This document shows, piece after piece, positions 12,565-27,100 of a stretch of 64,000 nucleotides of DNA (position 1 is its first letter; the number at the start of each line of letters is the position of its first letter). Made by a program: the position numbers and the translations under genes. Under the pieces are notes generated by a model. It was given only the letters and a program-made list of their open reading frames with translations. It was not told where the DNA came from and did not search any database. The DNA is from Hoeflea marina (GTDB taxonomy: Bacteria; Pseudomonadota; Alphaproteobacteria; Rhizobiales; Rhizobiaceae). The stretch is taken from assembly GCF_003182275.1 (NCBI RefSeq), contig NZ_QGTR01000003.1, forward strand, positions 310,001 through 374,000, given 5' to 3'.

Positions 12565-13590
12565 ATGAGATTCATCAACACGCTTGCAGGGCTGGCCGTC
12601 GTGACCGCTTCGGTCCTGACGCTGTCCGGCGCAGCACTTGCCGCGGACTATGACTGGACATTCCAGACTTCGGAGACAGCAGGCGAGCCCGGCTTCATCA
12701 ACAAGCAGAAATGGGCAGAAAATGTCGGCGTTCTGTCCGGCGGCCGAATCAACATCGAGATCCTGCCGATCGGCTCGGTCGTTCCGCACACCGACACGCT
12801 GGAAGCGGTGGGCTCCGGCATCCTGCAGGGGCATCTGACCGATCCGAGCTACTTTGCCGGCAAGGACCCGGCCTTCGCGATGATGGGCAACCTGGTGGGC
12901 GCATGGAGCGATCCGTTCGAACTCCTGGGCTTCATGCAGTCCGGCGGCGGCAACGAGCTCTATTCGGAGTTGGTCGAGCCCTATGGCGTCCACTTCATCG
13001 GCGCGGCGGCGACCGAACCCGAGGCCTTCGTGTCCAGCGTGCCGATCCGCACCGTGGAAGACTTGAAGGGCGTCAAGCTGCGGGCTCCGGAAGGCATGGT
13101 CTTCGAGATCTTCTCCAAGGCCGGCGCCTCGCCGGTGGCCCTTCCCGGCTCGGAAATCTTCTCCGCGCTCGACAAGGGCGTGGTCCAGGCAGCCGACAAC
13201 ACGGTGTTTGCCACCAACCAGGCGCTGGGCATGAACGACATCGCCCACTACCCGCTCTATCCGGGCTTTCACTCGCTGCCGCTGATCGACATCTCCATGA
13301 ACAAGGAGATCTGGGACGGGCTGCCCGAAGACCTGAAGGCGATCCTGAACGCGTCGGTCAACAAGTTCTGCTTCGATCACATCTATTCCGTGCGCAAGCT
13401 TGATGCCGAGGCGGTCACCAAGGCGAAGGCCAATCCGGAAATCGAGATCATCAACTGGTCCGGTGACGAACGCGCCAAGTTCCGCCGCATCGCACAGGAC
13501 GAGTGGAAGGTCTGGGCCGGCAAGTCGGATATGACCCAGCGCTACTACGACGCGGTCACGACCTACCTCACGGGCCGCAACCTGCTCTGA
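12565..13590 (+). CDS. TRAP transporter substrate-binding protein, DctP family
   Basis: Periplasmic solute receptor of a tripartite ATP-independent transporter, 341 residues. The first 27 residues form a Sec signal peptide ending ALA before ADYDW. The body has the family features: a conserved LRAPEGM motif (about residue 172), where the Arg normally salt-bridges the substrate carboxylate, and the following GSEIFSALDKGVVQAADN region. This resembles the DctP/TakP subgroup that binds 2-oxo or hydroxy carboxylates, but the substrate is uncertain. A GGGAGAGAG ribosome site precedes the ATG. It heads a dctP-dctQ-dctM operon with all three components present. Confidence 0.93.
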   Translation: MRFINTLAGLAVVTASVLTLSGAALAADYDWTFQTSETAGEPGFINKQKWAENVGVLSGGRINIEILPIGSVVPHTDTLEAVGSGILQGHLTDPSYFAGKDPAFAMMGNLVGAWSDPFELLGFMQSGGGNELYSELVEPYGVHFIGAAATEPEAFVSSVPIRTVEDLKGVKLRAPEGMVFEIFSKAGASPVALPGSEIFSALDKGVVQAADNTVFATNQALGMNDIAHYPLYPGFHSLPLIDISMNKEIWDGLPEDLKAILNASVNKFCFDHIYSVRKLDAEAVTKAKANPEIEIINWSGDERAKFRRIAQDEWKVWAGKSDMTQRYYDAVTTYLTGRNLL

Positions 13591-13652
13591 ACCTGACTTC
13601 CGCGCCCGGCGATCATCGCCCGGGCGCGGTTCACCGATACCGGGAGATAAAG

Positions 13653-14231
13653 ATGGCCGACATTCTCGAGTTGGAAGAGCGCGCCGAAAGCGGGGAGATC
13701 GAAACCCGCAGCGGGCTCGACAGGGCGGTTGCCGGCTCCACCAAATTCTTCGCCTGGGCCATCTTCCTGGCCTTCCTGGTCACGGTCTTCGAAGTGATCT
13801 CGCGCTATGTCTTCGACGCCCCGACATTCTGGGCCCACGAAAGCACAACCTTCCTGATTGCGGCCATCTTCCTGGTGGGCGGTCCGATCGCCCTGGCCCG
13901 CGACAGGCATATCCGCGTGCGCATGTTCTACGACACCGTGTCGCCGGCCGGCCGCCGCTGGCTCGACATCGTCAACTCCGCCATCGCGCTCGTGTTCTTC
14001 GCGGGCCTCGCCTACGCGGGCTGGATCATGTCCTGGAAGGCCACCCACACGCCCACGGGAGAGATTCACCTGGAGGGAACGGGGACATCGTGGAACCCGC
14101 CGACGCCGGCCCTGCTCAAGATGCTGGTGCTCATCTGCGTCGTGGTGATGTTCGCCCAGACCGTCATGCACCTGATCGCCGCATTGCGCCGCGATGTTTC
14201 GCCGCCGACCGACTCCAGCGGAGAGAATTGA
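13653..14231 (+). CDS. TRAP transporter small permease, DctQ family
   Basis: The 192-residue small membrane subunit links the receptor to the large permease. Four hydrophobic helices are apparent (about residues 30-50, 65-82, 108-128 and 150-175), with the typical RYVFDAPTFWAHE and ARDRHIRV segments between helices. The ATG at 13653 follows a GGGAG ribosome site; longer versions in frame run back into dctP and were rejected. It lies 62 bases after dctP and 2 bases before the dctM start. Confidence 0.93.
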   Translation: MADILELEERAESGEIETRSGLDRAVAGSTKFFAWAIFLAFLVTVFEVISRYVFDAPTFWAHESTTFLIAAIFLVGGPIALARDRHIRVRMFYDTVSPAGRRWLDIVNSAIALVFFAGLAYAGWIMSWKATHTPTGEIHLEGTGTSWNPPTPALLKMLVLICVVVMFAQTVMHLIAALRRDVSPPTDSSGEN

Positions 14232-14233
14232 TC

Positions 14234-15547
14234 ATGGGCCTGAGCGCGCTTGGCATCGAATACGGATCCTACGTCCTGGTGGCCGCGATCTTCCTGCTTC
14301 TTCTCACCGGCCAGCCGCTGGCCTGGGTCACCGGGCTGGTGGCGCTGATCTTCACGTTCGGCTGGTTCGGCGGCAGCGCCCTGCCGCTGGTCACCGCCCG
14401 CATCTTCGGCTTCATCACGGAATACTCGCTGGTCGCCATTCCCATGTTCATCCTGATGGCGGCGCTGCTCGACCGGTCCGGCATCGCCAAGGACCTGTTC
14501 AACGGCATGCGCGTGCTGGCGGGGCGACTTCCCGGCGGCGTTGCCGTGCAGACGCTGATCGTCGCGATCCTGATGGCAGCCATGTCCGGCGTCATCGGCG
14601 GAGAGATCGTGCTGCTCGGCATCCTGGCGCTGCCGCAGATGCTGCGGCTCGGCTACGACCGCAACCTGTCGATCGGCGTGGTCTGCGCCGGCGGATCGCT
14701 CGGCACGATGATGCCGCCCTCGATCGTGCTGATCATCTACGGCCTGGTGGCGAGCGTCTCGATCGCCGATCTCTTCGTCGCCGCCATCACGCCGGCGCTG
14801 CTGCTCCTGGCCTTCTATGTCGGCTATGTGCTGATCCTCTGCCTGCGCAATCCGCAGCTCGGTCCGCCGATGTCGAGGGCGGAACTGGCCGAGGAATCGG
14901 TGGGAAGCGCCATCCGCTCGATCATCGCGCCGATGTTCATCGTGGTGGCCGTGCTCGGCTCGATCTACGGCGGCGTTGCCTCCATCACCGAAGCCGCGGC
15001 GCTCGGCGTCTCGGCCGTGCTGGTGATTGCCCTGCTGCGCCGCGAATTGACGGTGAAAACGCTGCAGGACAGCCTGGTGCACACGCTTGAAACCTGCGGC
15101 ATGATCATCTGGATCGGAATTGCCGCGGCCGTGCTGGTGGGCGTCTACAACCTTATGGGCGGCAACCGCTTTGTCGCCGCCGCCATCCTCGGCATCGACG
15201 CGCCGCCGGTGGTGATCATCATGGTGATGATGCTCATACTGCTGGTGCTCGGCATGTTCCTTGACTGGATCGGCATTGCACTGCTGACGCTGCCGATCTT
15301 CGTGCCCATCGTCGTCCAACTGGGCTACGATCCGATCTGGTTCGGCATCCTGTTCGCGGTCAACATGCAGGTGTCTTACCTGACACCGCCCTTCGGGCCT
15401 GCCGCCTTCTACCTCAAGAGCGTTGCACCGAAGGAGATCACGCTCAAGCACATCTACACCGCGCTGCTGCCCTTCATCGCGCTGCAATTGGTGGTGCTGG
15501 CGATCATCCTGTTCTACCCGCCGATCGCCACCTGGCCGGTGAACTGA
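14234..15547 (+). CDS. TRAP transporter large permease, DctM family
   Basis: The 437-residue large subunit forms the sodium-coupled transport path. About twelve to thirteen hydrophobic helices are present, together with DctM motifs such as PMFILMAALLDRSGIAKDLF, MSGVIGGEIVLLG and GGSLGTMMPPSIVLIIYGL in the first half and LGMFLDWIGIALLTLPIFVP in the second. Its ATG at 14234 lies immediately after the dctQ stop, indicating coupled translation. It is convergent with the downstream signalling operon; no strong plus-strand terminator is evident in the 116-base gap. Confidence 0.95.
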   Translation: MGLSALGIEYGSYVLVAAIFLLLLTGQPLAWVTGLVALIFTFGWFGGSALPLVTARIFGFITEYSLVAIPMFILMAALLDRSGIAKDLFNGMRVLAGRLPGGVAVQTLIVAILMAAMSGVIGGEIVLLGILALPQMLRLGYDRNLSIGVVCAGGSLGTMMPPSIVLIIYGLVASVSIADLFVAAITPALLLLAFYVGYVLILCLRNPQLGPPMSRAELAEESVGSAIRSIIAPMFIVVAVLGSIYGGVASITEAAALGVSAVLVIALLRRELTVKTLQDSLVHTLETCGMIIWIGIAAAVLVGVYNLMGGNRFVAAAILGIDAPPVVIIMVMMLILLVLGMFLDWIGIALLTLPIFVPIVVQLGYDPIWFGILFAVNMQVSYLTPPFGPAAFYLKSVAPKEITLKHIYTALLPFIALQLVVLAIILFYPPIATWPVN

Positions 15548-15663: not shown

Positions 15664-16851
15664 CTACCCCTCCAGGGTTTCAGCCGAAAGGACCGTTACC
15701 GGCGGGAGATCGTGATCCGGCGGGCTGCCCCTGGGTATTTCCAGCGCGAACACGCTGCCTCTGCCCGGGCCGTCGCTCCAGACGGCGACATCGCCGCCGT
15801 GCAGTTCCATGAGCTGCTTGACGAGAGCAAGACCGATCCCAAGCCCGCCGTGGGCGTGATGGCGATGCTCTTCGATCTGCTCGAACATCCGGAAGATCGC
15901 CTTTGACCCCTCGGGCGACAGGCCCAGCCCATTGTCGGCCACAGCGACGCGGTAGGTTTTTTCCAGCACCTCGACAGAGACCTGGATACGGCCACCGCTC
16001 GGCGTGTACTTGGCAGCATTGTTAAGCAGGTTTGAAACGCATTGGGTTATGCGCACCCGGTCGGCCCAGACTTCGCAGGGCTTCTCCGGCGCGGTGAGCT
16101 CGACCGTGTGCTGCTTTTCCTCGATCGTCGCCCTCGTCATTTCCAGGGCTATGGAGACGGCGGCCTTGAGGTCGAACAGACTTTTTGACAGATTGATCTT
16201 GCCCTGCGTGATCCGTGAAATGTCGAGGAGATCATCGACCAGCCGGATGATGTGCGACATCTGCTCCTGCATCAGGCCGCTGATCTGCTCAGCCTTCTCG
16301 GAATCGGGCCTGCGGAAGAGCAGCTTCATGCCGCCATGCAGGGCGGCAAGCGGGTTGCGCAATTCGTGGACGAGAATGGCAAGGAACTCGTTTTTCCGCG
16401 TGTCGGCCAGTTGCAGGGCCTGCGCCTGTTCCTGCAGGATGTCTCGCTGCTCGGCGATCATCTGGCGCTGGCGGTAAATCTCGACAAACACCTCCGCCTT
16501 GCTGCGGAGGATGTCGGCCTCGATCGGCTTCTGGATGAAGTCGACCGCACCTGCCTCGTAGCCCTGGAAACGACGCTCGGCGCTATGGCTCCCCGCTGTC
16601 ACGAAGATGATCGGGATCCGGCGCGTTCGCTCGTTGCCGCGCATGAGCTCGGCGAGCTCGAAACCATTGAGTCCCGGCATCTGCACATCGATCAGCGCCA
16701 GGGCGACGTCATGGTGCAGCAGGAGTTCGAGGGCTTCGTCGCCAGACCTTGCCATCAGCAGCGTGAGGTCATCGCGGCGCAGCAGTGCCTCGAGAGACAG
16801 GAGGTTCTCGGAGAGATCGTCAACGAGAAGAAATTTGACGGGCGTTGTCAT
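15664..16851 (-). CDS. Response regulator receiver - histidine kinase protein
   Basis: A 395-residue soluble protein with an N-terminal REC domain (residues 1-125; phospho-acceptor Asp55 in LALIDVQMPG, Lys108 in IQKPI) followed by a short coiled coil and a HisKA domain with the phospho-His162 in VHELRNPLAALHG, then a HATPase domain (ITQCVSNLLNNAAKYTP, DNGLGLSP, GGLGIGLALVKQLMELHGG). No transmembrane or PAS domain is present. REC-before-kinase architecture suggests it is controlled by phosphorylation from another kinase, plausibly the hybrid kinase at the head of the operon. Its ATG overlaps the cheB stop by 4 bases and it is the last gene of the four-gene unit. Confidence 0.9.
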   Translation of the reverse strand: MTTPVKFLLVDDLSENLLSLEALLRRDDLTLLMARSGDEALELLLHHDVALALIDVQMPGLNGFELAELMRGNERTRRIPIIFVTAGSHSAERRFQGYEAGAVDFIQKPIEADILRSKAEVFVEIYRQRQMIAEQRDILQEQAQALQLADTRKNEFLAILVHELRNPLAALHGGMKLLFRRPDSEKAEQISGLMQEQMSHIIRLVDDLLDISRITQGKINLSKSLFDLKAAVSIALEMTRATIEEKQHTVELTAPEKPCEVWADRVRITQCVSNLLNNAAKYTPSGGRIQVSVEVLEKTYRVAVADNGLGLSPEGSKAIFRMFEQIEEHRHHAHGGLGIGLALVKQLMELHGGDVAVWSDGPGRGSVFALEIPRGSPPDHDLPPVTVLSAETLEG

Positions 16852-17420
16852 TTGAAGTTGCTCGACAGGTAGGATGGGATTTCAGGCAGCGCAAGAATGC
16901 GGGCTTTGGGGCATGCCAGGATGGCTGCATCCGGCATGGTCCTTGCAAAAGCGGTCGAAGGGTCCTGGACGATGGCGGTGCCGCCGGAGTTTTCGATGGC
17001 CTGCAGGCCCCGGGCGCCATCATGGTTGGCGCCGGTCAGCACGATGCCGGTCAGACGATCGCCCCAGGCTTCCGCAGCGCTCTCAAAGGCCACATCGATG
17101 GAGGGACGTGAAAACAACACCTCCTCCTCGTTGGAGAGCGCGATGCTGGATCGGCCCTCCAGCAGCAGGTGATAGTTGGGCGGCGCGAAGTAGATCACGC
17201 CGGGTTCGACGGGTTCCTTGTCTTCGGCCTCTATGGCCCGAAGGCGGCATTTTTCATTGAAAATCTCGGCCAGCACACTGCGCTTCTTGGGTGGCAGGTG
17301 CACGATGACAAAGATCGGAAAGGGATAGCCGGCGGGAAGTGCCGGCAGAATAGAGGACAGCGCCTCGAGCGCACCGGCCGACGCGCCGATGATCACTGCC
17401 CCTTCCGGCGTTTTGCTCAT
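16848..17420 (-). CDS. Stand-alone CheB-type methylesterase
   Basis: A 190-residue protein made only of the CheB catalytic domain. The Ser-His-Asp triad is intact: Ser14 in GASAGA, His41 in VHLPPKK and Asp134 in TGANHDGA; the EPGVIYFAPPNYHLLLE segment is also typical. The receiver domain that gates chemotactic CheB is missing, so activity would not be controlled by phosphorylation of the enzyme itself. It overlaps cheR upstream and the REC-kinase downstream by 4 bases each. The esterase substrate is unknown because no chemoreceptor gene is present nearby. Confidence 0.9.
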   Translation of the reverse strand: MSKTPEGAVIIGASAGALEALSSILPALPAGYPFPIFVIVHLPPKKRSVLAEIFNEKCRLRAIEAEDKEPVEPGVIYFAPPNYHLLLEGRSSIALSNEEEVLFSRPSIDVAFESAAEAWGDRLTGIVLTGANHDGARGLQAIENSGGTAIVQDPSTAFARTMPDAAILACPKARILALPEIPSYLSSNFK

Positions 17421-18250
17421 GCCCGGGTCCTCTGGTAGATCTTTTCCTCACGCACGAATTCGCGGAAGCTGTCCGCATGGGTGGAAAAGCGCAGCGTCTC
17501 CTTGGCGCCGAGGCCCAGAAAGCCGTTGTGGGGGAGGGAATCCCGGAACAGACCGATAGCCCGGTCCTGCAACGGCCGGTCGAAATAGATCATCACGTTC
17601 CTGCAGGAGACAAACTGCATCTCACCGAACACCTGGTCGGTGACCAGGCTGTGATCGGAGAAGACCACATTGCGGCGGAGGCTCTTGTCCAGCGCACAGC
17701 GATTGTAGGCGGTGGTGTAATAGTCGGACAGGGAGGACTTTCCTCCGGCCTGCCGGTGGTTCTCGGTGAAGAGACGGACGCGCTCGATGTCGTAGACGCC
17801 GGTCTCCGCCTGGGCCAGGGCATCCGGGTTGATATCCGTCGCGTAGAACAGGGTCCGTTCTTCCAGCCCCTCTTCCCGGAACAGGATGACGAGGGAGTAG
17901 AGCTCTTCGCCGGCGCTGCATCCGGCAACCCAGATCTTGAGGGACGGGTAGGTGCGCAGATGCGGCACCACCTTCTGCCTTATCGCCAGGAAATAGGATG
18001 GATCCCGAAACATCTCGCTGACCTGGACGGTCAGGTAGCGCAGCATCCGCGGCAACATGTCCGGATCATGAAGAACATGCTCCTGCATGGCCGAAATCGT
18101 CGAGAAGCCCAGCTGCTCGCGCGCCTGGCGCAGCCGCCGCCGGATCGACGACATCGCGTAGTTGCGAAAATCGTAGTGATAGCGGTGATAAAGCGCCTCG
18201 AGCAGCAGGCGGATCTCGATGTCCTCGACCTTCTCGTACGTGTCGATCAT
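17417..18250 (-). CDS. CheR-type protein-glutamate O-methyltransferase
   Basis: A 277-residue SAM-dependent methyltransferase of the CheR family. The N-terminal helical domain ends with the TVQVSEMFRDPSYF motif (about residues 74-88), followed by the SAM-binding GCSAGEE (110-116), the acidic ATDINPDALAQA strand-loop, and the late QFVSCRNVMIYFDRPLQ motif, all characteristic. No TPR or other extension is present. Its start overlaps the hybrid kinase stop (ATGA) and its stop overlaps the CheB start, so the three products are probably made in fixed ratio. Its methylation target is not encoded as a recognisable MCP in this window. Confidence 0.92.
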   Translation of the reverse strand: MIDTYEKVEDIEIRLLLEALYHRYHYDFRNYAMSSIRRRLRQAREQLGFSTISAMQEHVLHDPDMLPRMLRYLTVQVSEMFRDPSYFLAIRQKVVPHLRTYPSLKIWVAGCSAGEELYSLVILFREEGLEERTLFYATDINPDALAQAETGVYDIERVRLFTENHRQAGGKSSLSDYYTTAYNRCALDKSLRRNVVFSDHSLVTDQVFGEMQFVSCRNVMIYFDRPLQDRAIGLFRDSLPHNGFLGLGAKETLRFSTHADSFREFVREEKIYQRTRA

Positions 18251-21200
18251 TGCGGAATCCAGACGCGCACCAGGGACAGAAGCTTCTCGACGTCGAGCGG
18301 CTTTGCCATATAGTCGTTTGCACCCGCCTCGATGCAGCGCCGCTGATCGTCCGGCATCGCCTTGGCGGTCAGTGCAATGACGGGAAGCTTGGCCCAGGCG
18401 GAGTTCTTCCGGATGTGGCGCGTGGCGGTCAGTCCGTCCATTACCGGCATCATCACATCCATCAGCACCAGATCGATACGCCCTTCCGGCGCGCTGAGCG
18501 ACTGCTCAAGCTTGGCAAGCGCTTCCTCCCCGTTCCGGGCGATTTCGATGATCGCCCCGCGCGGCTCGAGAATGTTGGTCAGGGCATAGACATTGCGGAC
18601 ATCGTCTTCGACGACGAGAATGCGGCGTCCTTCCAGCAGCGCATCGCGGTTTCGAGCCTTGCGGATCATCATCTGCTGCTCTTCCGGCAGTTCCGAGACG
18701 ACCTGGTGCAGGAAAAGGGTCACCTCGTCCAGGAGACGTTCGGGCGACTTGGCGCCCTTGATGATGATCGACCTGGAGTAACGGCGGAGCTTCTGTTCCT
18801 CTTCGCCGGACAGGACGCGTCCGGTGTAGACAATGACCGGCGGGAACGAATGCGCGCCATCCTGGCTGATGGTTTCGAGCAGCGCAAAGCCGGACGCATC
18901 CGGCAGGGACAGATCAAGCACCATGCAGTCGAAGGTCTGCTCCTTCAGCAAGGCGAGGCATTCGCCCGCCGTGCCTGCGCCGATGGTCTCGACATCGTGC
19001 GACGCAATCAGGCGGGACACGGCCTCGCGCTGCACCGCATTGTCCTCCACGATCAGCACGCGGCGCACATTCTGGGAAACCTTTGCTTCCAGCGTCTCCA
19101 GCATGCCGACAAGCTGATCCCGGTCCACCGGCTTGAGGGCGTAGCCGACGGCTCCCAGTGACAGGGCGCGATCCGCGTAATCCTCCGCGGAGAGGATGTG
19201 GATCGGAATGTGACGCGTGCGCACGTCGCGCTTGAGGCGGTCGAGCACCGAAAGACCGGACTGGTCGGGAAGCCCCACGTCCAGCACGATTGCATGCGGG
19301 ACGAACTGGATCGCCATTTCAAGCGCTTCCTGTGCGGTTCCGGCCACCAGGGCGCGGAATTTCAGCTCGCGCGCCACGTCCCGCAGGATCGTGGCAAAGG
19401 ACGCGTCATCCTCGACGATGAGAAGCTTGCGCGCCTGTTCGCCAGCCAGGAAACGGTCGTCCTCGACGATTCCCGGAACCGCCAGCTGCGGCGACGGACG
19501 CGCCTGCGCCTGCGGCTGAGCGGCGAGCGGTGCCGGCGCGGCGGGCAGCGCGGCCGGGTCCGGAGCCGGCTTGCGGGCGAGCGAAGCCGTGAAGACCTGC
19601 GGAATGACGACGGTGAAGGTGCTGCCGGCGGACGAACTGCTCTCCAGCTGCAACGTTCCTCCCAGCAACCTTACCAGCTCGCGCGAGATGGAGAGGCCCA
19701 GGCCTGTGCCGCCGAACCGGCGGCTGATCGTGCTGTCGGCCTGGTGAAAGGCGTCGAAGATGCGTTTCTGATGGTCTTCGGCAATGCCGATCCCGGTGTC
19801 CTTCACCGAGATTGCCAACTGGGCTTCCCCATGGGCGCGGACGGCGAGCGCGACACTGCCGGTCTCGGTGAACTTGATGGCGTTGGCCAGAAGGTTCTTG
19901 AGGACCTGCTCCAGCCTCTGCGGATCGGTCTGGATGACTGCCGGCGCATCGGCCGAGGCCGTAAGCGACAACTCCAGTCCCTTGTTGGCGGTCAGCGGCT
20001 CGAAGAGATGGCGCAGCGAGCCCAGCATGCGCTCGACCGATACCGGTTCGGGGTGTATCTCGACATGGCCCGCCTCGATCTTCGACAGGTCCAGGATATC
20101 GTTGATCAGGTTGAGCAGGTCATTGCCCGACGACTGGATCGTCTGGGCGAACTTGACCTGCTCCGGCGTCAGGTTCTCATCCGCGTTGTCCGCCAGCAGT
20201 TTCGCGAGAATGAGAGACGAATTCAGCGGAGTGCGCAGTTCGTGCGACATATTGGCAAGGAAGTCCGACTTGTAGCGGCTGGCCTGCTCGACTTCCCTCG
20301 CCTTGAGCATCGTTGCCTCGTTTGCCCGCTCGAGATAGTCCCGCTGTTGCTCCAGTTCCTGCGCCTGCTCCTCGAGCTGGGAATTGGTCTGCTCGAGCTC
20401 CGCCTGCTGCTGCTCGAGACGGCCCTGGGATTCCTTCAGCGCCCGGCTCTGCTCCTCCAGTTCCTCGTTGGAAACCCGCAGCTCCTCTCCCTGCAGCTGC
20501 AGCTCCCCCGATTGCCGTTGCGTTTCTTCGAGGAGTGTCTGGAGCCGCGCCCGAAACTCGGCCGACCGTATGGCAACTGCGATCGCCCCGGAAACCTGTT
20601 CGAGAAGAACGAGGACCTGATCGCCCACAGAGGACAGGAAGCCGAGTTCGAAAAGACCCTTTACTTCACCTTCAACGATCGCCGGCGCCAGGGTGAGATA
20701 GCTGGGCTTGTTCTGGCCCAAACTCGATCCGAAACTGATGTAGCCGTCGGGGACCTCGCCGACGACGATGGGCCGGTGATCCCTGAGGACGTGGCCGAAC
20801 AGGCTGTCGGTCCGGCCGAAATGCGCAGGAAGCGCGACATCGGAGGGTACGCCGTGAGCCGCGGTGCGCACATACCTGCCTTCGCTCTCGGTGTAGAGGG
20901 CTCCGGCAACAGCTCCGAGATAGCTCGTCAGGAAGCTCAGGATATTTTCGCCCAGCTCCTCGAGCGACTGGTCTCCGGAAACGGCGGTCGCCAAACCGAC
21001 CTGGCCGTCCCTCAGCCACTGTTCGCTTCGCCGCGCCAGCGTCGCCTTGCGCATCAGCGCGCCTATGACCAGTGTCAGAACTACGCTGAGGGCACCCGAC
21101 ACGAGGCTGGTGAGGAAAGCGACCTTGTAGGCGTCGTTCATCTCCGCGACGCGCACGGTCCGCTCGGCGGTTTCAGCGTCGCGGAGCTGGTCTACGACAT

Positions 21201-21696
21201 CGCGGATGCTGTCCATGTCGGTTTTGCCGCGATCCGATGCAACAAGAGCCAGCGCCGCGCTGCGCCCCTGCTCGCGGTAGATCCTCAGGGTCTCGTCCAT
21301 CTCGTTCAACTTGGAATCGATGTAACCGCGCAACTGCTCCAGACGCCCTTGCTGCGAGGTTTCGCCTGCGATCAGCTCGTCGACAGCCCTCAATCGGTTC
21401 TGCACCTGGGAGAGCGCCCGGCGATAGGGCTCGAGATACTCCTCCTCGCCGGTCAGCAGATAACCCCTTTGCCCCGTCTCCGCGTCCTGCACGTCGAGCA
21501 ACAGCAGGTCGATCGCGACGATGATCTTGTGGGTCTGGACGACGCTTGCATTGCTCACCCGAAGCAACTGGGTGGTGTACACCGCCACCGTCGTGCTCAG
21601 GATGAAGAACACGAGCGCGACCCCGAGTCCGATCAGGACGGCCGGTTCCAGTCCGAGCGCAGTCTTGTTACCGAGGGCAGAGGTTCTTCTGTGCAT
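18247..21696 (-). CDS. CHASE3-GAF hybrid sensor kinase with three receiver domains
   Basis: A 1149-residue membrane sensor. Order: transmembrane helix (about 16-45), CHASE3 sensor (about 50-190, with QDAETGQRGYLLTGEEEYL), second helix (about 192-214), GAF domain (about 235-380), a long Glu/Gln-rich coiled coil (about 385-470), HisKA with His485 in ANMSHELRTPLNS, HATPase (ANAIKFTETG, DTGIGIAEDHQ, GGTGLGLSISRELV), a Pro/Ala-rich linker, then three REC domains with acceptor Asp806 (IVLDVGLPD), Asp928 (MVLDLSLPD) and Asp1080 (LMDVMMPVMDG). No HPt domain is seen. The ATG at 21696 is used; a GTG three codons upstream is possible. It is the first gene of the operon with cheR, cheB and the REC-kinase. 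Confidence 0.92.
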   Translation of the reverse strand: MHRRTSALGNKTALGLEPAVLIGLGVALVFFILSTTVAVYTTQLLRVSNASVVQTHKIIVAIDLLLLDVQDAETGQRGYLLTGEEEYLEPYRRALSQVQNRLRAVDELIAGETSQQGRLEQLRGYIDSKLNEMDETLRIYREQGRSAALALVASDRGKTDMDSIRDVVDQLRDAETAERTVRVAEMNDAYKVAFLTSLVSGALSVVLTLVIGALMRKATLARRSEQWLRDGQVGLATAVSGDQSLEELGENILSFLTSYLGAVAGALYTESEGRYVRTAAHGVPSDVALPAHFGRTDSLFGHVLRDHRPIVVGEVPDGYISFGSSLGQNKPSYLTLAPAIVEGEVKGLFELGFLSSVGDQVLVLLEQVSGAIAVAIRSAEFRARLQTLLEETQRQSGELQLQGEELRVSNEELEEQSRALKESQGRLEQQQAELEQTNSQLEEQAQELEQQRDYLERANEATMLKAREVEQASRYKSDFLANMSHELRTPLNSSLILAKLLADNADENLTPEQVKFAQTIQSSGNDLLNLINDILDLSKIEAGHVEIHPEPVSVERMLGSLRHLFEPLTANKGLELSLTASADAPAVIQTDPQRLEQVLKNLLANAIKFTETGSVALAVRAHGEAQLAISVKDTGIGIAEDHQKRIFDAFHQADSTISRRFGGTGLGLSISRELVRLLGGTLQLESSSSAGSTFTVVIPQVFTASLARKPAPDPAALPAAPAPLAAQPQAQARPSPQLAVPGIVEDDRFLAGEQARKLLIVEDDASFATILRDVARELKFRALVAGTAQEALEMAIQFVPHAIVLDVGLPDQSGLSVLDRLKRDVRTRHIPIHILSAEDYADRALSLGAVGYALKPVDRDQLVGMLETLEAKVSQNVRRVLIVEDNAVQREAVSRLIASHDVETIGAGTAGECLALLKEQTFDCMVLDLSLPDASGFALLETISQDGAHSFPPVIVYTGRVLSGEEEQKLRRYSRSIIIKGAKSPERLLDEVTLFLHQVVSELPEEQQMMIRKARNRDALLEGRRILVVEDDVRNVYALTNILEPRGAIIEIARNGEEALAKLEQSLSAPEGRIDLVLMDVMMPVMDGLTATRHIRKNSAWAKLPVIALTAKAMPDDQRRCIEAGANDYMAKPLDVEKLLSLVRVWIPQ

Positions 21697-22387
21697 GTCA
21701 ATCACTTGGATCTGTTGTTACCGGATGGCGGCGCGGCTGGACGTCAACTGCAGGAGCAACTGTTACTGCTCCCCTTCGGTATTGACCAGCCTGCGGAAAA
21801 GGCGAAATCTGCCCCCTTGCGTGGAGTGCGCGACATCGGAAAGCCGTCTGTCCTCAACGGCCTCCATGGCTGATTTTCCGATCCGCATCTTCTTACAGCC
21901 CTTTGCAGCACTGACCCGGCCCAAGTGGTGGGGCAAACCGCTGTTTTGGCAGCGCCATCGAACATCAGAGGTGGTTGCTAGATAGCAAGAGCACAACCCG
22001 AATGGCAAGGTCGCACCTTGCCTGAATGTCGCAAACCATCCCGCTCTTGCGATATGGCGCATCCGGCGGTCCGCCATGGGCGGAGCTGACGGCTGCAGCA
22101 TCGATTGCGCCGCTCCCGCACGCGGTTGCCCGTTCAGCCGCGAAGGGACGGGTGATCGGCGCTCCGCGCCGGTCACGATGTCGTTCCGGATGACGGCGGA
22201 TTGCAGGCCGGGGATGGCCCGGAAGATAATCGAACCGACCCACGCTCGCAATGCACTGCGGGGCACTGCGTGGCGCCCAGGTCGCGAGCCCGCCCGGAAA
22301 CATCCGGGGCAATCATTTGCGTCGACTTTGCATACGGATAGTGCCAGAAGATTCGCTGCAGCACTCATACTCGTCCGAGGACAGAAC
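21697..22387. other. Intergenic region between the kinase operon and a small secreted protein gene
   Basis: No convincing gene lies in these 691 bases, although open frames cross it. It holds the promoter region for the leftward kinase operon. Two symmetric elements are visible: TTGCTA-GA-TAGCAA at 21975-21988 and a hairpin GGCAAGGT-CGC-ACCTTGCC at 22004-22022. The rest is featureless GC-rich sequence. Confidence 0.55.
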
Positions 22388-24042: not shown

Positions 24043-24741
24043 TCAGTTCACCGCCAGCACCAGTCCGGTGTCGTGCTGGCGGACGTAATCGACGCGGTTG
24101 CCATCCCAGTGGTAGCTGTAGTGTCGGCCCTGGACCGGCACGGGAACGACGTCCGGCCAGAAGACGCCGACGCACAGGCCGCCCGGCATGCGTACGCTCG
24201 GCCAGGTCAGGCCGTCGCTGCCCGCCGCCCGCAAGGCCGCGCCCTCCGCCTGGGAGCTGGCGTAATCGTCCGGCTCGAGCGCGCCCGGCACTGCGCCGAC
24301 ATCATCGAGATCGCGGTCGACGCTGCCTGCCAGCACGCGGAAATCCGCGGTCCAGCCCGGTGCCTCGGCGGTGGCGCGCATGAAATTCTGGTGATGGTGG
24401 ACGGTCTCGGCCAGCGCCACGTCCTCGCTGTCGCCGGCATAGTAGACCCCGTAGCTGCCGTCGCTGAAGCGGCTGGGCCGCAGCCGGGAGCAATGCACGA
24501 AGGGCGCCATCACCAGGCTGGCGCCGGGACCGGAAACCCGCCGTGCCGAGGGCACCTTGCCGAGATCCCCCATTTCAAGCCGGATGCGCGGATTGGTCTT
24601 GGCCTCGACGGCGGCCAGCGCTTCCCAGTCGCGCGGGTCGGCGATATCCTCGAACAGATTGATGGGCGGGAAGATGGACCGGATGATGCGGTAGGTCCGC
24701 GGCCAGTTCACGCGCCGGCGGGCCGCCAGCCCGCTCACCAT
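24043..24741 (-). CDS. RES-domain toxin of a RES-Xre toxin-antitoxin pair
   Basis: A 232-residue RES-family protein. Family members that have been characterised degrade NAD+ through an ADP-ribosyltransferase-like fold. The family landmarks are present in order: the Arg in TYRIIRS, the Glu of the VALAETVHHHQNF helix, and the Ser in GLTWPSVRMPGG near the C-terminus, followed by FWPDVV. The ATG at 24741 overlaps the antitoxin stop codon by several bases, the usual antitoxin-first layout. It is convergent with gshB 35 bases away. NAD+ depletion here is inferred from family. Confidence 0.88.
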   Translation of the reverse strand: MVSGLAARRRVNWPRTYRIIRSIFPPINLFEDIADPRDWEALAAVEAKTNPRIRLEMGDLGKVPSARRVSGPGASLVMAPFVHCSRLRPSRFSDGSYGVYYAGDSEDVALAETVHHHQNFMRATAEAPGWTADFRVLAGSVDRDLDDVGAVPGALEPDDYASSQAEGAALRAAGSDGLTWPSVRMPGGLCVGVFWPDVVPVPVQGRHYSYHWDGNRVDYVRQHDTGLVLAVN

Positions 24742-25145
24742 GCGCCGCGCTCGGCATCGATCCATTCGCGGAGCGCGGCAAGGTCAGACACTTCGCCGCG
24801 CAGCATCAGCTCCAGCGCCGACAGGCCGCCGAAGGCGGCATTGCGCTTGCGGATCCAGTCATAGCCGCGGGCCGGCTGCCGGAACAGATAGCGCAGTCCC
24901 TTGTGAATGCCGATCATATGCGCCATCCGCATGCGCAGATCGCGGTCGATGCGGCCGAAGCCGCCGTCCTTCCAGCGCGCCCAGGTGCGCGGCGACATGC
25001 CGCCGAGCAAAGTGCAGGCCTCGGCGTCGGACAGCGCCCACGCCCTGAACAGATTGACGACGGTGCGGGCGAGCGCGCCCGCCTCCGCTTCGGTGATGGC
25101 GGAATCGGCCTGTGTCGGGGTCGCGATGACGGGCTGGAGCTGCAA
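24735..25145 (-). CDS. Xre/MbcA/ParS-type antitoxin (DUF2384)
   Basis: A 136-residue antitoxin with an N-terminal Xre-like helix-turn-helix (ALSDAEACTLLGGMSPRTWARWKDG) and the C-terminal toxin-binding domain (RMAHMIGIHKGLRYLF, then PARGYDWIRKRNAAFGGLSALELMLRG). The reading frame extends far upstream, but a TTG at 25145 has a perfect AGGAG (25152-25156) six bases away and lies just after a strong promoter, so TTG is chosen. Homologous antitoxins are about 130-150 residues, which agrees. Overlaps the RES gene downstream. Confidence 0.87.
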   Translation of the reverse strand: MQLQPVIATPTQADSAITEAEAGALARTVVNLFRAWALSDAEACTLLGGMSPRTWARWKDGGFGRIDRDLRMRMAHMIGIHKGLRYLFRQPARGYDWIRKRNAAFGGLSALELMLRGEVSDLAALREWIDAERGAW

Positions 25146-25155
25146 CTCATTCTCC

Positions 25156-25195
25156 TTTTGGCAATAATATAAGATAAATCTGCCAAATGGCAATA
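25156..25195 (-). promoter_or_regulatory. Promoter and operator repeats of the RES-Xre pair
   Basis: On the minus strand a -35 box TTGCCA (25193-25188) and a -10 box TATATT (25171-25166) are separated by 16 bases, giving a very short leader before the TTG start. Overlapping it are TTTGGCA (25157-25163) and its inverse TGCCAAA (25181-25187), plus a direct repeat TGGCAATA at 25159-25166 and 25188-25195. The repeats cover both promoter boxes, as expected for autorepression by the antitoxin. The segment is conspicuously AT-rich. Confidence 0.65.
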
Positions 25196-25567
25196 CTTGA
25201 AACCGGATCCGCTCTGTCAGCGTGGCGCCAGCGGGCCACCGACCGCACCCGGCAGATGGATCGCCTGAATCCGGGGTAAAATGCCGGTGCAAGAGTCGGT
25301 CACCGCAAATGCCGTCCCCGGGCCCCACTGGCGCTGCCCGCACTGTGCTCGGTGCGGCGCATCGAGGTCCGCACCGTGCCGGCGCCGGCGACAGTGGCGC
25401 TTGTTTATCCGCGCCCACCGGCCCATCGGCCCGCCTCGACTTCACGCCGGCGATTGTTTGTTGCCTCTCTGTTCTTGTTTTATTCTTCGTTTCATGCATT
25501 ATTGCCTGATCGCGGAAGACGGGCGGTGACGGGCCGCGCGGTTCCTGCAGGTTGGAGGGACAGGCAC

Positions 25568-27100
25568 ATGGTGGCACGGGTCAACACGGTGGCATTCCAT
25601 GGCATCGACGCGGTGCCGATCGACGTCCAGGTGATGGTGGCGCCTGGCAAGGTCAACATGCAGATTGTCGGCCTGCCCGACAAGGCGGTGGCCGAGAGCC
25701 GCGAGCGCGTGCAGGCGGCGCTGCACGCTTCCGGGCTGACCCTTCCGGCCAAACGCATCACCGTCAATCTGGCGCCGGCCGACCTGCCCAAGGAGGGCAG
25801 CCATTTCGACCTTCCCATCGCGCTCGGCCTGATGGCCGTGCTGGGGGCGATTCCGGGCGATGCCTTGAGCGGCTTCGTGGTGCTGGGTGAACTCTCGCTC
25901 GACGGCACCATTGCCGCCGTCGCCGGGGCGCTGCCGGCGGCCATCGGCGCCAACGCGCTCGGCAAGGGGCTGATCTGCCCGGCGGAGAGTGGCCCCGAAG
26001 CGGCCTGGGCGGGCGAGGAAATCGAGATTCTGGCGCCGCGCTCGCTGATTGCCATCGCCAACCATTTCCGCGGCACCCAGGTGCTCTCGCGGCCGAAGCC
26101 CGCCATGCGTGCCGCGGGCGCCAACCAGCCGGACATGGCCGACATCAAGGGCCAGGAGAGCGCAAAGCGGGCGCTGGAGGTGTCCGCCGCCGGCGGCCAC
26201 AATCTTCTGATGATCGGACCTCCCGGCTCCGGCAAGTCGATGCTCGCCGCCCGGCTTCCGTCGATCCTGCCGCCGCTGTCGCCGGCGGAACTGCTTGAAG
26301 TGTCGATGATCCACTCCATTGCCGGCCACCTGGCCGGGGGCAAGCTTTCGGACCGGCGGCCGTTCCGCGCCCCGCACCACTCCGCCTCGATGGCCGCGAT
26401 GGTCGGCGGCGGCCTGCGCGCACGGCCGGGCGAAGTCTCGCTGGCCCACAACGGCGTGCTGTTTCTCGACGAGTTTCCCGAATTCCCGCCCGCCGTGCTC
26501 GATTCGCTGCGGCAGCCGCTGGAGAACGGCGAGAGCGTCATTGCGCGCGCCAACCACCGCGTCTCCTATCCCGCCAGTATCCAGCTGGTGGCGGCGATGA
26601 ATCCCTGCCGCTGCGGCATGGCCGGTGAGCCCGGGCACAGCTGCGCCCGCGGCCAGCGCTGCCAAAGCGAATATCAGGGGCGGATCTCCGGACCGCTGAT
26701 GGACCGGATCGACATCCGAATCGACGTGCCGGCGGTGTCGGCCGGCGACCTGATCAGGCCGCAGGCGTCAGAGACCAGCGCCGAAGTGGCGGCCCGCGTG
26801 GCGCGCGCCCGGCGCATCCAGACCGAGCGCTACCGGGCGGCGGGCCGACCCGACATCCGCACCAATTCGCAATGCCCCACGGCGTTGGTCGAGGAGGTCG
26901 CAATCCCCGATGCGGGCGGCCTGGCGCTGCTCAGGGACGCGGCGGAGAAGATGAAGTTCTCGGCGCGAGCCTATCACCGCATCCTCAAGGTGGCGCGCAC
27001 ACTGGCCGATCTGGACGGCGCGGAGGCGGTGGGCCGCATCCATCTCGCGGAAGCCATCTCCTACCGCATCACCACCGAGCGCTTCGCTGTGGCGGCTTGA
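25568..27100 (+). CDS. comM: YifB/ComM family Mg-chelatase-like AAA ATPase
   Basis: A 510-residue ComM-type protein; characterised homologues are hexameric helicases that promote branch migration during integration of transforming DNA. The N-terminal Lon-protease-like fold (ESRERVQAALHASGLTLPAKR, PKEGSHFDLPIALG) precedes an AAA core with Walker A GPPGSGKSMLAARL, Walker B NGVLFLDEFPEF, sensor region and the Cys-rich NPCRCGMAGEPGHSCARGQRC insertion, and a C-terminal Mg_chelatase domain (SARAYHRILKVARTLADLDG). GGAGG precedes the ATG at 25568. In relatives it follows gshB; here the RES-Xre pair is inserted between them. Confidence 0.95.
   Translation: MVARVNTVAFHGIDAVPIDVQVMVAPGKVNMQIVGLPDKAVAESRERVQAALHASGLTLPAKRITVNLAPADLPKEGSHFDLPIALGLMAVLGAIPGDALSGFVVLGELSLDGTIAAVAGALPAAIGANALGKGLICPAESGPEAAWAGEEIEILAPRSLIAIANHFRGTQVLSRPKPAMRAAGANQPDMADIKGQESAKRALEVSAAGGHNLLMIGPPGSGKSMLAARLPSILPPLSPAELLEVSMIHSIAGHLAGGKLSDRRPFRAPHHSASMAAMVGGGLRARPGEVSLAHNGVLFLDEFPEFPPAVLDSLRQPLENGESVIARANHRVSYPASIQLVAAMNPCRCGMAGEPGHSCARGQRCQSEYQGRISGPLMDRIDIRIDVPAVSAGDLIRPQASETSAEVAARVARARRIQTERYRAAGRPDIRTNSQCPTALVEEVAIPDAGGLALLRDAAEKMKFSARAYHRILKVARTLADLDGAEAVGRIHLAEAISYRITTERFAVAA

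Follow-up and report, generated by a model that had tools for sequence, protein, structure and literature searches.

A four-gene operon on the minus strand of a 64,000-nucleotide stretch of the Hoeflea marina genome (contig NZ_QGTR01000003.1, positions 310,001 to 374,000; the whole stretch is hereafter referred to as the window) encodes a hybrid histidine kinase, a CheR-type methyltransferase, a stand-alone CheB methylesterase catalytic domain and a second, REC-bearing kinase. This operon is real and conserved and belongs to a kind that is already known; its mode of action is expected to resemble that of the RsbK-RsbM pair of Bacillus cereus, in which RsbM methylates the signalling helix (S-helix) of RsbK (PMC4574943), and its genes stand in the order of the Pseudomonas putida Cfc genes. 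We consider it probable that the four genes form an RsbK/CfcA-type methylation-controlled kinase operon, in which methylation of the adjoining hybrid kinase by CheR is undone by CheB.

Gene order, enzymes and distribution of the operon

The operon and its junctions comprise the following features, in window coordinates:
18247..21705, minus strand: hybrid histidine kinase, 1152 aa (list of open reading frames, Pfam, direct reading)
17417..18250, minus strand: CheR-type methyltransferase, 277 aa (list of open reading frames; Pfam CheR_N and CheR)
16848..17420, minus strand: CheB methylesterase catalytic domain alone, 190 aa (list of open reading frames; Pfam CheB_methylest)
15664..16851, minus strand: REC-HisKA-HATPase_c kinase, 395 aa, in the position of CfcD (list of open reading frames, Pfam)
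18247..18250, minus strand: ATGA overlap of kinase and cheR (letters read directly)
17417..17420, minus strand: ATGA overlap of cheR and cheB (letters read directly)
16848..16851, minus strand: ATGA overlap of cheB and the REC-kinase gene (letters read directly)

An earlier sequence-only reading of this stretch had placed ATGA overlaps at 18250-18247, 17420-17417 and 16851-16848. All three were found, although the "four-way" overlap of which it spoke does not exist, as there are only three junctions. Pfam upheld its description of a CheB without a receiver domain and detected no methyl-accepting chemotaxis protein (MCP), CheA, CheW or CheY within the four-gene operon.

To place the operon among its relatives, genome contigs were scanned with an alignment of nine CheR sequences, and the best 80 of at least 587 confirmed relatives were taken as the set of loci. 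A hybrid kinase lies upstream of CheR in 66 of these 80 loci, CheB downstream in 55 and a REC protein downstream in 68. All of these features occur together in 42 of 80. The four-gene arrangement exceeds chance. No upstream kinase was found in 14 loci. Six of them are situated approximately 1.5 kb or less from a contig start, two have the kinase split into two frames, five show none (L063, L098, L103, L106 and L123), and one (L113) has a different gene order. This last locus, from Flavobacterium xanthum, carries CheR, CheB, hybrid kinase and REC-kinase in that order, near a gene for a CheB-CheR fusion protein; its genome gave no MCP match. CheA, CheW and MCP gave no match in the 80 loci when searched with single-sequence seeds, some of the loci being short.

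The CheR group spans 13 phyla (12 by tree labels, plus Deinococcota), and CheB adjoins CheR in relatives from 11 of the 13; phyla were assigned by record titles, and several rest on metagenome-assembled genomes. At finer scale, the cassette is patchy and partly plasmid-borne. A CheR of at least 60% identity was found in 3 of 150 genomes drawn from the same order, that of the window included. Among 565 plasmid records with a match, 67 reach at least 60% CheR identity, and 16 of those reach 84-88%, the latter coming from Rhizobiaceae, Ochrobactrum and Pseudochrobactrum. A conjugative Allorhizobium plasmid (NC_011984.1, locus L049) carries the same four genes in the same order, and plasmid carriage may lie behind the patchiness in the window's order.

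Junctions capable of overlapping are common yet not fixed in this family, occurring among the cassette loci in 31 of 72 cases between hybrid kinase and CheR, in 37 of 59 between CheR and CheB, and in 19 of 56 between CheB and the REC gene. The proposal that the 4-bp overlaps signal the importance of stoichiometry was therefore rejected, since they vary across the family.

The best alignment in the PDB was 5ftw for the window CheR and 3sft, followed by 1chd, for the window CheB. An AGCxxGEE-type S-adenosylmethionine-binding motif and the basic residues R38/R39 are nearly invariant in 87 CheRs. Residues Ser14, His41 and Asp134 of the window CheB align with the conserved Ser, His and Asp of solved CheB structures, which we take to be the catalytic residues; they are kept across cassette CheBs in 59 of 59, 59 of 59 and 58 of 59 cases, respectively, the single Asp exception being a gap.

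The S-helix of the hybrid kinase as candidate substrate

The hybrid kinase has an ambiguous start, differing by 9 bases (GTG at 21705 or ATG at 21696), and contains the following regions:
21145..21552, minus strand: CHASE3 sensor domain, residues 52-187 (Pfam, 8.8e-40)
20569..20970, minus strand: GAF_2 domain, residues 246-379 (Pfam)
20281..20565, minus strand: S-helix coiled coil, residues 381-475, proposed CheR/CheB substrate (sequence; methylation by analogy with RsbK-RsbM, PMC4574943)
19597..20271, minus strand: kinase core of HisKA (479-546) and HATPase_c (593-703) (Pfam)
18268..19412, minus strand: three C-terminal REC domains, the third at 1029-1146 (Pfam; outer limit of the first approximate, by eye)

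Two predicted transmembrane helices, judged by eye, flank CHASE3. GAF and HisKA are joined by a coiled coil in which glutamate pairs recur every seven residues, a feature conserved from Bacteroidota to Bacillota. MCP methylation sites are likewise Glu/Gln pairs with seven-residue spacing. In the window kinase, a first heptad register holds Glu-Glu (EE) pairs at 393, 407 and 414 with GE at 400, and a second holds EQ at 431, EQ at 438, EE at 445 and EQ at 452, which makes residues 393 to 453 the predicted candidate region for methylation. Of 72 cassette kinases, 70 have at least two heptad EE pairs in succession, always at 45-188 residues before HisKA. Such a run turns up in only 2 of the 75 rows assigned to downstream REC genes, and one of these two is a misplaced hybrid kinase (L113). 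Within the window's own genome, it occurs in 1 of the 30 HisKA-family kinases fetched (from 32 places, some proteins being cut at 500 residues before HisKA), namely the operon kinase itself.

We infer the methylation and demethylation of the window kinase, its stimulus and its output as follows. The membrane-bound CHASE3 hybrid kinase would sense an envelope- or salt-type stress. The adjoining CheR would act on the S-helix that links GAF to HisKA, methylating glutamates in its heptad Glu-Glu and Glu-Gln pairs, and this methylation would bias the kinase as RsbM does RsbK. The dedicated CheB would strip the methyl esters from the S-helix and thereby render the setting reversible; it may also deamidate the glutamines of the EQ pairs. 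The REC domains would be the exit for phosphoryl groups. The most likely acceptor is the REC domain of the fourth gene product, beyond which a diguanylate cyclase may follow.

As a control for the association between EE pairs and CheR, a coiled-coil profile (A3) was searched in 398 genomes of the same phylum; the matches listed, less that of the window, gave 120 regions with 125 frames. Among the linker-profile kinases with HisKA, at least two EE heptads were present in 55 of the 59 adjoining CheR versus 8 of the 31 without CheR, and in 2 of 4 kinases standing in tandem with a CheR-adjoining kinase. Two kinases at contig ends and two rows without a HisKA match were left out of these counts, and one of the 31 kinases without CheR (L231) stands in tandem with a row lacking a HisKA match. 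The contrast persisted after collapse at 90% identity (49/53 versus 8/19, Fisher p 2e-5) and at 75% (40/43 versus 7/14, p 0.001). It supports, without proving, the S-helix as the probable substrate. The remaining 27 of the 125 frames are CheB-CheR fusions; all have 5-8 consecutive EE pairs, but it was the linker profile that selected them.

Several observations weigh against the proposal that CheR and CheB reversibly methylate the S-helix. The pairs seem unlike the full MCP methylation consensus, in which small residues flank the sites. The linker profile was built from CheR-linked kinases and is therefore biased towards EE, and the contrast shrinks after collapse at 60% identity (25/28 versus 7/12, p 0.039), where a threshold of at least three EE pairs gives 14/28 versus 2/12 (p 0.079). 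Independent pairs on the kinase tree, six in all, scored 1.7 in the same direction and 0.0 in the opposite one, which is the expected direction and is not significant. Shuffled linkers produced a run of two EE pairs in 9.6% of cases and of three in 0.25%, so that two in succession, the number in the window kinase, is not by itself unusual. CheB was not found in 22 of the 66 kinase-bearing loci. Finally, mutants in P. putida cfc genes other than cfcA retain the crinkle phenotype, according to a statement that is marked there as unpublished (PMC4951495).

Two further groups of kinases were observed in the course of these comparisons. Tandem S-helix hybrid kinases, of which just one in each pair adjoins CheR, occur at L230, L231, L237, L245 and L248. 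GAF hybrid kinases of approximately 1800-2400 aa occur with CheR at L051, L105, L110, L116 and L120; in large GAF hybrid kinases without CheR (L169-L174, L178, L179 and L181), the EE run was one in seven of nine and two in the other two.

Chemoreceptors, demethylation and phosphotransfer

The operon might instead be an accidental neighbour of chemotaxis, with CheR and CheB serving as spare adaptation enzymes for the chemoreceptors of the cell and lying beside two kinases by chance. The 5.26-Mb host genome does contain 15 MCPsignal matches and 4 CheW-domain matches, and CheR and CheB each occur at three places in it: the operon, a 1057-aa CheB-CheR frame and a chemotaxis cluster. That cluster, however, comprises a CheR, a REC-bearing CheB and a 765-aa frame with a CheW domain, taken as CheA, and therefore possesses its own adaptation enzymes. 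The sequence-only reading had named a genomic MCP/CheA/CheW set served by the operon pair as the finding that would overturn its view; such a set exists, but it is equipped with its own CheR and CheB, and there is no indication that the operon pair serves it.

Genomes without chemoreceptors point in the same direction. Of the 80 cassette loci, 50 were submitted to an MCP search, and 13 of the 49 genomes searched have no MCPsignal match, a count limited by drafts and metagenome-assembled genomes, which may lack genes. They include isolates of Flavobacterium, Chryseobacterium, Niastella, Paracoccus, Bacillus and Neobacillus, and in 10 of the 13, among them the Flavobacterium, Chryseobacterium and Niastella isolates, the cassette includes CheB. 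Where a complete assembly has no MCP match, the substrate of CheR and CheB cannot be an MCP.

Phylogenetic analysis of CheR also separates the cassette from chemotaxis. In a tree of 114 CheR domains, which omits the host's own chemotaxis CheR, the 87 cassette CheRs fall on one side of a branch (Shimodaira-Hasegawa-like approximate likelihood ratio test, SH-aLRT, 86), a grouping favoured by their selection through similarity to the query. On the other side, the 16 rows of CheB-CheR fusions form a single group, alongside nine CheRs of chemotaxis or other type and one further long-frame CheR. Also on that side is a Persicobacter CheR (L055) from a cluster that contains CheA; it lies nearest the cassette group, on a long, unsure branch. 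Together with the position of the hybrid kinase upstream of CheR in most loci, these results make an accidental association very improbable, and it was rejected on the basis of the cluster's own enzymes, the MCP-free genomes and the CheR tree. The non-chemotactic CheR/CheB circuit tied to kinases that the sequence-only reading had proposed is thereby strengthened, with RsbK-RsbM as its precedent (PMC4574943).

A second alternative concerns reversibility. CheR may methylate the kinase while CheB acts elsewhere or erases constantly, in which case the operon would be a fixed set-point device rather than an adapting one. The window CheB lacks a REC domain, no CheB was seen in the Bacillota loci or the HWE-kinase alphaproteobacterial loci of the set, and the B. 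cereus study considers it improbable that demethylation of RsbK controls sigma B activation (PMC4574943). Against this stands the frequent placement of CheB downstream of CheR (55/80 loci) with its Ser, His and Asp kept, and we regard a fixed set-point as unlikely, though not negligibly so. The dedicated CheB sets the window operon apart from RsbK-RsbM and would presumably make the modification reversible; the methyl-removing half of this widespread, partly studied family is still largely unstudied.

The fourth gene bears on the route of phosphotransfer. REC was the first Pfam domain in 18 of 18 scanned downstream proteins outside the window, whereas the remainder of these proteins varies, a pattern in keeping with the hybrid kinase as the predicted phosphodonor of that REC domain. 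Phosphorylation of the REC-kinase by the hybrid kinase, as the sequence-only reading had it, is plausible. A two-tier phosphorelay from hybrid kinase to REC-kinase could even be the main function, with CheR and CheB as mild modulators. This is conceivable, if rather doubtful, and it is compatible with a methylation-controlled kinase rather than opposed to it; a paper on Sphingomonas KipF reportedly suggests such a two-tier relay in its title. The closest relative of the fourth-protein REC domain in the genome is the first REC domain of a PleD-like REC-REC-GGDEF protein (39%, E 4.6e-19), a similarity that gives only a hint of a possible diguanylate cyclase output.

Elsewhere in the family, a GGDEF (diguanylate cyclase) REC protein replaces the REC-kinase after CheB at six loci (L100, L107, L109, L117, L119 and L134). 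At six others, of Sphingomonad and Rhodobacter type (L053, L054, L070, L080, L084 and L094), a REC-PAS-HWE kinase is the last gene and CheB was not found. Kinases of the REC-PAS-HWE type serve in the general stress response of alphaproteobacteria.

The four operon neighbours examined with Pfam were identified as DctP, glutathione synthetase, RES and Xre. Window positions 12565-15547 on the plus strand hold a gene for a DctP-type TRAP transporter solute-binding protein and its likely membrane partners, heading towards the operon (DctP alone was tested). At 24043-25577 on the minus strand, a RES-domain gene overlaps an Xre/MbcA/ParS antitoxin-type gene, a toxin-antitoxin pair by family names.

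Comparison with known systems

Chemotaxis systems share the CheR and CheB families with the window operon, which differs from them in having no receptor, CheA, CheW or CheY and in the absence of REC from its CheB. CheB-CheR fusions share CheR and CheB together with an EE-heptad coiled coil; they differ in being one polypeptide with a separate CheR branch, whereas the window CheR and CheB are separate open reading frames. Fusion proteins of this kind are known with PAS and kinase parts. Among the fusion frames found by CheR similarity, 15 of 16 have 4-8 EE pairs in a row, the exception being L027. In the 1057-aa frame of the host (G000:C3:32668-34842; loci L002, L006 and L186), seven EE pairs follow one another in strict heptad spacing.

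Adaptation by methylation is familiar from chemoreceptors. We tentatively propose, as an idea somewhat short of an even prospect, a receptor-free form of adaptation in which CheR adds, and a dedicated CheB without REC removes, methyl groups on heptad glutamate pairs in the S-helix of a hybrid kinase, giving a stress or biofilm kinase a chemotaxis-style memory. Coiled coils with heptad glutamate pairs would then be a general mark of CheR substrates, common to MCPs, these kinases and the CheB-CheR fusions. If CheB demethylates the kinase, the family would make sensory adaptation accessible in two-component systems that lack receptor arrays. Such a system would also link the work on RsbK-RsbM with that on Cfc, which are treated apart in the literature consulted, save for one paper that lists the two together as CHASE3 kinases (PMC10950880).

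RsbK-RsbM-RsbY shares with the window a CHASE3/GAF/S-helix/HisKA/HATPase/REC hybrid kinase beside a CheR-type methyltransferase, and 127 RsbK-like kinases across 10 phyla have been reported (PMC4574943). RsbK has a HAMP domain and one REC domain, whereas the window kinase has three REC domains and no HAMP detected by Pfam. The B. cereus output runs through a REC-PP2C phosphatase, RsbY, to sigma B, in contrast to the REC-HisKA-HATPase product of the fourth window gene (PMC4574943); no REC-PP2C/sigma B cluster was found at the window operon among the fourth gene and the four neighbours examined with Pfam. That study describes RsbM, a CheR acting on a stress kinase, without a cognate methylesterase partner, whereas the window CheR is followed directly by CheB. 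It was also the only paper in the literature searched in which RsbK and CheB came up together (PMC4574943). Two Neobacillus loci (L132 and L133) show the rsbK-rsbM-rsbY layout, in which kinase and CheR come after genes for an anti-sigma-type ATPase, a sigma factor and a phosphatase of the REC-SpoIIE type; their CheRs are 44% identical to the window CheR, B. cereus RsbM itself standing outside the comparison. Strict membership of the window operon in the RsbK-RsbM-RsbY group was rejected, as it lacks the sigma-factor layout of these two loci.

Among other CHASE3 kinases, studies suggest a part in salt sensing for CfcA and Sphingomonas KipF (PMC10950880). BmsA of Pseudomonas alkylphenolica, a CHASE3/GAF hybrid kinase reported to affect biofilm and motility, is cited beside a CheR-CheB-hybrid kinase cluster (PMC8175716). 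In gene order the parallel is P. putida cfcABCD, which shares with the window a CHASE3/GAF hybrid kinase, CheR (cfcB), CheB (cfcC) and a REC protein in the same order (PMC4951495). The sequence-only reading had known of no defined function for clusters of this kind, yet CfcA, encoded by the first gene of cfcABCDE (PP_3761), is reported to be required for the activity of the diguanylate cyclase CfcR, a GGDEF/EAL response regulator (PMC4951495). The corresponding locus in P. putida strain 31303 (L076, not KT2440) encodes a CHASE3-GAF-HisKA-HATPase-3xREC kinase, CheR, CheB and a REC-histidine kinase. The cfcABCDE cluster has a fifth gene and the window operon has none; the window CheR is 58% identical to the CheR of L076.

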